DNA of 50,921 nucleotides from Microcaldota archaeon. GTDB lineage: Archaea; Micrarchaeota; Micrarchaeia; Burarchaeales; JAKAKT01. The translations under genes were made by a program, and so were the position numbers. Shown piece by piece: positions 18,401 through 33,880 of this stretch (positions are counted from its first letter, which is position 1; every line of letters begins with the position of its first letter). The notes under the pieces were generated by a model, which saw only the letters and a program-made list of their open reading frames with translations, did not search any database and was not told where the DNA came from. The DNA lies in NCBI GenBank assembly GCA_021813385.1, contig JAKAKT010000040.1, forward strand, positions 1-50,921, written 5' to 3'.

Positions 18401-18455
18401 GGCAGGTTATTGCAGAAAACGTTTTAATATCTTGTATACGGAAAGATAGACGCGC

Positions 18456-18689
18456 GGGCCCGTAGCTCAGCTTGGATAGAGCGACACCCTCCTAACTCCT
18501 CGGCACTCCCTTGGGGGAGGGTCAGGAGGAGCCTGAAACTGGGGAGGGGGTGGAACCCCCTCCGCGGTTCGGAAAGGTGAAGGCCACGTGTTCAAATACA
18601 TCCCTTTCTTTTTAAGAAAAAGAAAGGTCTGTATCAACCCCAAAGAAAAACTACTGACGGGTTGATTCTTGAAAATCACGTCGGGCCCG
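18456..18689 (+). tRNA. tRNA-Arg(CCT) with two introns: anticodon loop (about 18495-18574) and T-loop 59/60 (about 18597-18675); CCA not encoded
   Basis: Exons assemble to a 75-nt cloverleaf: GGGCCCG TA GCTC AGCTTGGATA GAGC G ACACC CTCCTAA GGTGA AGGCC ACGTG TTCAAAT CACGT CGGGCCC G; anticodon 18491-18493. Confidence 0.88.
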
Positions 18690-18713
18690 CTTGTGTTTTT
18701 TAATGGTGTTTGG

Positions 18714-26388: not shown

Positions 26389-26439
26389 GGACAAATTTTC
26401 GAAAATTTGTCCGTATTGGAATTTATCAAAATTCCAATA
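26389..26439. repeat. Two adjacent inverted repeats: GGACAAATTTTC/GAAAATTTGTCC (perfect 24-bp palindrome) and TATTGGAATTT-atca-AAATTCCAATA
   Basis: Read directly. Confidence 0.85.
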
Positions 26440-26458
26440 AAATTTAAAAAATAAAAAA

Positions 26459-26633
26459 CGGGCCTGGGGGGATTTTCAGTTCCCACAAAAGGTTTCTTTT
26501 GGGTTCAACCACCGTTTTTTCTTTGGGGTTGATCCAGACCTTTCTTTTTCCTAAAAAGAAAGGGAAGGATTTTGAACCCCCGGCTTCCTGGTTAAAAGCC
26601 AGGCACTCTAAGGCCAAGCTGAGTTACAGGCCC
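26459..26633 (-). tRNA. tRNA-Lys(TTT) with a T-loop intron at 59/60 (about 26473-26570); CCA not encoded
   Basis: Exons assemble to 77 nt: GGGCCTG TA ACTC AGCTTGGCCTTA GAGT G CCTGG CTTTTAA CCAGG AAGCC GGGGG TTCAAAT CCCCC CAGGCCC G; anticodon at 26594-26596. Confidence 0.9.
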
Positions 26634-33269: not shown

Positions 33270-33502
33270 ATTCCCCCTCCGTGCCTTAGAATGAGTAATA
33301 CTTTGTATCTCTTCTAGAATATAAATCTTCTTGGATTCCGGTTGCCATAACTGGCCAGTTCTTCTAAAAAACTCCGAATTCCGAGATGTGTGCCTTCGGA
33401 GGGGCTGAAACGGCAAAAAGAAGCCCTAAAACTACCCGGAATCCGAATTTAACCTGCAGTAGGGGAATTTCAAGCACCCTTTTATAAGTTCGGTTGCAAA
33501 GG

Positions 33503-33880
33503 GAGAACTTGCGTGGGAAAAAAGAGAAGACGAGAGATTATGTTCGCGGGGGGAATCAGGAGGACCAATTTGTGCTCGGGCACAAATGGTCCATTTTTGC
33601 CTTGGGGCAAAAATAGGACCCTGAAACTGAAGGGGCCGACAAGTGTTCGAGCACTTGTGGCCCATTTTTCCCATCAGGGAAAAATAGGGGGCGGAGCCCC
33701 CCTGCGGTTCGGGGGGGAACTTGCGTGGGAAAAAGTTTAGGAAGACGAGAGGTAAAGTTCGTTGGGGGGTATCAGGAATAGCCAGAACTGAAGGGGGCGC
33801 TCCCCCTGCGGTTCCAATTTTTCGCTCGAGCGAAAAATGGACCATTTGTGCCTTGCACAAATTGGTCGGCACTGGAAAGC
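33503..33880. repeat. Intergenic array of nested hairpins in two ~212-bp-offset related units; candidate structured ncRNA/mobile RNA element
   Basis: Direct repeat GAACTTGCGTGGGAAAAA…GAAGACGAGAG…GTTCG…GGGGGG(A/T)ATCAGGA at 33505 and 33717; hairpins at 33564-33590, 33591-33617, 33633-33663, 33662-33688, 33687-33701, 33814-33840, 33841-33866. Confidence 0.8.

Follow-up and report, generated by a model that had tools for sequence, protein, structure and literature searches.

The locus

The window is the whole stretch of DNA analysed, 50,921 nucleotides long. Its source genome (G000) is a 1.78-Mb draft in 105 contigs, 93% complete. Positions 33501–33869 are intergenic, between a minus-strand ORF and an MCM gene that carries an intein. 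They hold two tandem copies of a mobile element, here called E, interrupted by three double hairpins (DHs). A TATA-like TTTATAAG lies a short way upstream of the first E unit. The features are as follows.

18506–18575, plus strand: third E of the window, at the 3' end of an anticodon-loop intron (18495–18574); covariance model R1
33501–33547, plus strand: target copy 1, upstream of E unit 1; GGGAGAACTTGCGTGGGAAAAA..GAAGACGAGAG..GTTCG; direct repeat of 33713–33763
33548–33712, plus strand: E unit 1; G-run, TCAGGA, CCTGAAACTG, G/C hairpin, GCGGTTCGG; broken by two DHs; covariance model R1 and empty relatives
33562–33620, plus strand: DH1 (hairpins a and b); GGACC-A-hp1-GGTCC-hp2-A-GGACC
33633–33691, plus strand: DH2 (hairpins c and d), in the apical loop of E's own hairpin; GGGCC-G-hp1-GGCCC-hp2-A-GGGGG
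33713–33763, plus strand: target copy 2, starting 0 nt past the GGTTCGG of unit 1; direct repeat
33764–33869, plus strand: E unit 2 (GGGGGGTATCAGGAATAGCCAGAACTGAAGGGGGCGCTCCCCCTGCGGTTC^GG), split near its 3' end by DH3; covariance model R1
33815–33867, minus strand: DH3 (hairpins e and f), a 53-nt insertion (DH span 33810–33867), inverted relative to DH1 and DH2; empty site on contig C41
33919–37410, plus strand: MCM helicase gene with LAGLIDADG intein, directly downstream of the array; Pfam

An earlier note on this DNA described six hairpins, a–f, in adjacent pairs. All six are present with the stems it quoted, and they form the three DHs. The note did not recognise that the array is built of tandem E units or that the same E lies in the tRNA intron. 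It placed one pair in unit 1 between the strands TCAGG and CCTGA; one DH does lie between TCAGGA and CCTGA, and a second occupies the apical loop of E's G/C hairpin. Unit 2 also carries a DH, the third, which runs the opposite way and interrupts the conserved 3' end GGTTC^GG. For hairpin c the stem is as given, but pairing extends beyond GGCC, with the intervening strand of the two hairpins free to pair with the flank on either side.

The double hairpin

A DH consists of two back-to-back hairpins, about 53 nt in all, on the plan N-CC-R-[A..T]-GG-N'-CC-[A..T]-Y-GG-N. Read from the left it runs foot, one bulged base, [A..stem..T], centre, [A..stem..T], one bulged base, foot. One base bulges from each hairpin immediately inside the basal stem: from the 5' strand in the first hairpin, from the 3' strand in the second. 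The recurrent unpaired A reported before is thus a real unpaired base, more exactly a strict one-base bulge that is not always A (R or T on one side, Y or A on the other, strand-symmetrically).

Scripts and a covariance model found 75 DHs in Micrarchaeota and relatives, a few of them overlapping alternates. Three-base foot pairing at an offset of exactly one base is seen at hairpin 1 in 51 of the 75, at hairpin 2 in 58 and at both in 49; all other offsets together account for only a handful. The base before hairpin 1 is G in 23 cases, A in 19, T in 9 and never C. After hairpin 2 it is T (24), C (24) or A (10) and never G, the strand-symmetric counterpart. The covariance model that fetched many of these loci includes the first foot and leaves the second unmodelled, so the figure for hairpin 2 is not built in.

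Model R2 of the DH matches the source genome and 13 others, with about 13 places in G000, about 35 in a genome of the same family (G001) and about 14 in G002. Five genomes without any detected E (G004, G006, G008, G010 and G030) give matches as well. The same module recurs genome-wide and in relatives, including places without E, so one of the earlier note's two refuting conditions, a lack of recurrence elsewhere in the genome, is not fulfilled. Identical arms (ATTTTTGCC, ATTTGCGC, ATTCGAGC) are found at many unrelated sites and across genera, so sequence has been copied from place to place. At locus L327 one DH sits within the hairpin loop of another. DH motifs were not found in viral contigs.

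A different paired hairpin lies at 26390–26450 (ATTGGAATTT..AAATTCCAAT, then ACAAATTTTCGAAAATTTGT). It occurs again at L021:5286 and resembles L028, and it represents a second palindrome family without the one-base-bulge foot.

DHs are not expected by chance. As DNA, DH1, DH2 and DH3 fold with z = -7.1, -7.8 and -6.7 relative to dinucleotide shuffles. The earlier note would have been refuted by paired hairpins arising equally often in shuffled sequence. They do not: 867 kb of non-redundant fetched DNA contains 36 tandem-hairpin clusters, against 0–1 in each of five dinucleotide shuffles, and in 11 of the clusters the centre is complementary to a flank, which no shuffled cluster shows. The statement that sequences vary while pairing is preserved also holds, with compensatory change on both sides at 8–9 of 22 pairs, a level reached in at most 1 of 500 shuffles. 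Across seven DHs, 95–97% of cells pair under either alternative folding, with the centre strand joined to the left or to the right flank, and shifting the partner by one column halves the pairing.

Insertion into E

DHs often lie inside E, and we dissected seven such cases, all from the source genome. Removing CC-R-hp1-GG-N'-CC-hp2-Y-GG and one copy of N leaves a junction that matches an unoccupied E elsewhere; the identity extends to 28 nt or more in six cases and to 16 nt in the remaining one. Unit 2 of the window has a near-identical, uninterrupted copy at C41:21055–21118 of the same genome, and the two make a filled and an empty site. Since excision restores an E identical to empty copies elsewhere, insertion of the DH is demonstrated directly, and the modular insertion of double hairpins suggested earlier is borne out. 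DHs insert precisely and in both orientations; they follow a strict plan, are dispersed and nest. The E hairpin loop looks like a general landing site.

The footprint of insertion is one duplicated target base, N. The centre base N' is complementary to it in all seven cases (five A/T, two G/C). The match is only suggestive, because the chance of a perfect match given that split is about 1 in 21, and the rule rests on seven cases with only two classes of N (A and G). DHs with centres of 6–7 nt show no shared N. At L141 and L124, a longer inverted repeat (TCACATTGAGTAGC..GCTACTCGATGTGA) has been inserted into the apical loop of E, where DH2 lies in the window.

The host element E

E follows the pattern GGGGGG-(AA)TCAGGAnnAnCC-RAAaCTG-GGGGG..CCCCC-GCGGTTYGG and is about 60 nt long when empty; the cores listed span about 47–143 nt. 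The consensus of 10 copies with DHs removed runs G-run, (A/T)(A), TCAGGAnnAnCC, RAAaCTG, purine run, loop, pyrimidine run, GCGGTTYGG. A group I intron, considered from PMC6125680, was ruled out by the length of only about 60 nt.

Model R1 detects E about 14 times in the source genome and also in 13 of 40 relatives. Between 5 and 29 copies are present in each of ten further genomes, among them bins of Altiarchaeota and Diapherotrites. We count 114 copies overall and at most about 30 per genome. All 52 pattern matches in genome_contigs are archaeal, mostly from Micrarchaeota; two matches in viral contigs were rejected as ordinary coding sequence. The surroundings of the copies are unrelated, their strand relative to genes varies, and most copies are single and dispersed over different contigs.

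The window holds three copies, the two array units and 18506–18575. The last is the 3' part of the anticodon-loop intron of tRNA-Arg(CCT) (18454–18690), which ARAGORN calls as tRNA-Arg(cct) once the anticodon-loop and T-loop introns are removed. Other copies lie in introns of other tRNAs, immediately 5' of tRNAs, 3' of tRNAs and at the ends of protein genes. The second, T-loop intron is of a recurrent type (CCCTTTCTTTTT..AAAAAGAAAGG TCTGGATCAACCCCAAAGAAAAA) seen in tRNA genes at 18495–18690 and 26500–26627 (minus strand). Similar sequence adjoins E at L022 and L038 and is apparently another dispersed family.

The 5' purine run of E (A) and the purine strand of its hairpin (B) are mirror images, as in GGGGGAGGG..GGGAGGGGG and GGGGAGGAAA..AAAGGAGGGG. 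Mirror identity averages 7.08 of 9 positions, compared with 5.03 (sd 0.165) for permuted partners (z = 12); kinship among E copies was not controlled. Pairing of A with the pyrimidine strand C in place of a triplex was rejected, as the direct register is far weaker (z = 3). Mirror symmetry of purine tracts is compatible with an antiparallel purine-motif triplex (A.B:C) formed by a single strand, and it suggests, from sequence statistics alone, that E may fold as a single-stranded triplex.

Target duplications at gene ends

Sequence upstream of E is often repeated directly downstream of it. A repeat starting 0–3 nt after GGTTYGG is present at 34 of 113 copies and at 1 of 103 mispaired-flank controls. 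It is 13–73 nt long and starts exactly 0 nt past GGTTYGG in 24 of the 34. The other 79 copies have no recognisable duplication by the 0–3 nt criterion. The array units of the window are one case of duplication: target copy 2 begins at 33713, right after GGTTCGG. E is thus a dispersed element with a fixed right end and long target duplications.

Where the duplication is coding (15 pairs, 144 codons), the two copies differ by 28 synonymous and 4 nonsynonymous codons and by no indels. Neutral decay of a displaced copy would not give this synonymous bias; it is expected if E brings in the gene end of a relative. In rtcB, genome G041 has E and two copies of the gene end, whereas the 92%-identical rtcB of G042 has neither; the two G041 duplicates are at similar distances from G042. 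In the inositol-phosphate synthase gene, E lies at the same place past the stop codon in both genomes compared. Some insertions could restore the reading frame if E were spliced from mRNA, an explanation we set aside as unneeded given that the upstream copy completes the ORF.

At L131 and L116, in two genomes, E occupies the same junction between an AcnX-like gene and the gene that follows. At L131 the overlap of the two genes is duplicated, so both stay intact.

Mechanism and rival explanations

The paired hairpins are, we think it probable, a non-autonomous mobile palindrome of about 53 nt nested in a second non-autonomous element, E, and moved as follows. The DH can be read as two opposed short hairpins, N-[CC-R-hp1-GG]-N'-[CC-hp2-Y-GG]-N, in which N' could pair with either flank. 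As single-stranded DNA, on the lagging strand or in a cruciform, the bulged hairpins would be bound and cut by a nuclease or transposase acting in trans, in the style of IS200/IS605 or REP elements; this step is inferred. Insertion would favour hairpins and the G-rich ends of E. The match of N and N' may come from base-pairing with the target or from later perfecting by template switching, again an inference. E is likewise inferred to act as folded single-stranded DNA recognised by an enzyme in trans. Its fixed right end, ...GCGGTTYGG, would be joined to an arbitrary target point, with the 13–73 nt from there repeated upstream of E. That the duplicated gene ends differ almost only at synonymous sites makes it probable that E, with the upstream copy, has passed from one related genome to another by homing or gene conversion, importing a relative's gene end.

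No mobilising enzyme was identified for either element. Neither a Y1 transposase (PF01797) nor a reverse transcriptase was found in the 93%-complete source genome, and only 8 of 20 E-bearing genomes have a Y1 transposase. The four tyrosine recombinase or integrase genes of the source genome do not share a contig with any E.

Could mutation alone have produced the N-hp-N'-hp-N pattern, through template switching at palindromes during replication and without transposition? Quasipalindrome correction would be expected to yield perfect stems and a centre complementary to its flank, as seen in 7 of 7 cases, yet it would not explain constant insertion boundaries or the same arms (ATTTTTGCC, ATTTGCGC, ATTCGAGC) at many unrelated sites across genera, and we regard it as quite unlikely. 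At the RNA level, DHs and E might belong to a structured non-coding RNA or a bistable RNA switch, its variable stems keeping their pairing for the sake of RNA function and its tandem units made by duplication; we consider this unlikely. DH insertions point either way and disrupt conserved parts of E; the sites of E have unrelated surroundings and its strand relative to genes varies; there is no Rfam family, and copy number differs widely between genomes. Such an RNA would account for the compensatory changes, the centre strand that can pair with either flank, the location in tRNA introns and the TATA-like TTTATAAG near unit 1, and folding as RNA is indeed strong (z = -6.8 for the plus strand and -8.4 for the minus strand of the 401-nt array).

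E could instead be an attC-like folded site of an archaeal integron-type system, with DHs as variable terminal structures. Integrons have been reported in archaea (PMC9668308), four tyrosine recombinase genes are present in the source genome, and E lies at gene 3' ends as an imperfect hairpin with extrahelical bases, GGTT near its boundary and a variable apex. We nevertheless give this reading very little credence. The boxes RYYYAAC/GTTRRRY are not met (E has CCtRAAaC/GGTTYGG), the boundary falls after GGTTYGG and not inside GTT, most copies are single and dispersed, and integron recombination yields no long target duplications.

Returning to two nested mobile palindromes, a bolder form would make E a new class of tiny selfish DNA. 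It would fold into a single-stranded triple helix (purine run A on the B:C hairpin), join its 3' end to arbitrary gene ends and home between DPANN archaea with a recoded gene 3' end, and the DH would be a hairpin transposon parasitic on E whose centre base is set by the target. We offer this only tentatively; it may well be wrong in part or whole.

Comparison with known systems

Searches of Rfam 15 at gathering and relaxed thresholds gave nothing credible for the DH or E, only tRNA elsewhere in the window. In the literature on palindromic and hairpin repeats in Micrarchaeota and DPANN, we found no description of either (subscription literature lay outside the search). The array is best read as a nest of two undescribed mobile palindromic families. 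DPANN genomes are small, yet they carry these two very short families at up to a few dozen copies per genome, one nested in the other. Their sites include tRNA introns, the ends of the core genes rtcB and inositol-phosphate synthase, and the stretch shortly before MCM. The synonymously diverged gene-end duplications are probably a direct trace of DNA passing between relatives. The mirror-repeat covariation points to a possible triplex fold in a natural mobile element and is directly testable. The covariance models built here allow others to annotate both families.

Like archaeal tRNA introns, a class marked by the BHB motif, some E copies sit in the anticodon loop of tRNA-Arg, -Thr, -Ser and -Ala, where they form the 3' part of the intron; most lie outside tRNA genes. 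With archaeal integron attC sites, E shares a folded hairpin, extrahelical bases and a place next to gene 3' ends; it differs from those of PMC9668308 in its boxes (R''/R' RYYYAAC ... GTTRRRY against the E consensus CCtRAAaC ... GGTTYGG), in having no cassette array and in its target duplication. Mobile ORFs of fungal mitochondria (Allomyces atp6; Glomus atp6, atp9, cox2 and nad3) insert at a gene's 3' end and bring a diverged copy of the C-terminus while a second copy stays downstream; the nucleotides diverge and the protein is largely kept (PMC3630166). E shares with these C-terminal-duplication elements a duplicated gene 3' end whose copies have diverged synonymously (28 synonymous and 4 nonsynonymous differences in 144 codons). 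In contrast, E cores (about 47–143 nt) are too short for an endonuclease gene, tRNA introns and tRNA ends are further sites of E, and which copy is native is unproved for E.

In its workings, by analogy, the DH most resembles fungal mitochondrial double-hairpin elements (DHEs), yeast GC clusters and bacterial BIMEs. REP/BIME sequences, mobilised by RAYT (Y1 transposases of the IS200/IS605 type), are likewise dispersed, extragenic palindromes that are short and imperfect, have an unpaired stem base and are often arranged as inverted pairs; among the DHs, 49 of 75 are paired inverted palindromes with a one-base bulge on both sides. The flanks and centres of the 75 show no common GTAG or CGTC tag of the REP/BIME kind, their feet are CC/GG or GC/GC, and, unlike in REP/BIME systems, the Y1 transposase is missing from the source genome and many other bearing genomes. 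Fungal mitochondrial DHEs and yeast GC clusters are described as two short hairpins that are sporadic, mobile, intergenic, nested or merged, encode no protein and spread by conversion with their flanks (PMC2800124 citing Paquin 2000; PMC4478555). The likeness lies in the two adjacent hairpins of each mobile unit; the hosts are unrelated and no DHE sequences were compared. Allomyces DHEs are reported without flanking duplications. The DH differs from DHEs in residing in archaeal chromosomes, in its strict one-base bulge, in the N/N' rule and in having an obvious second element, E, as its host.
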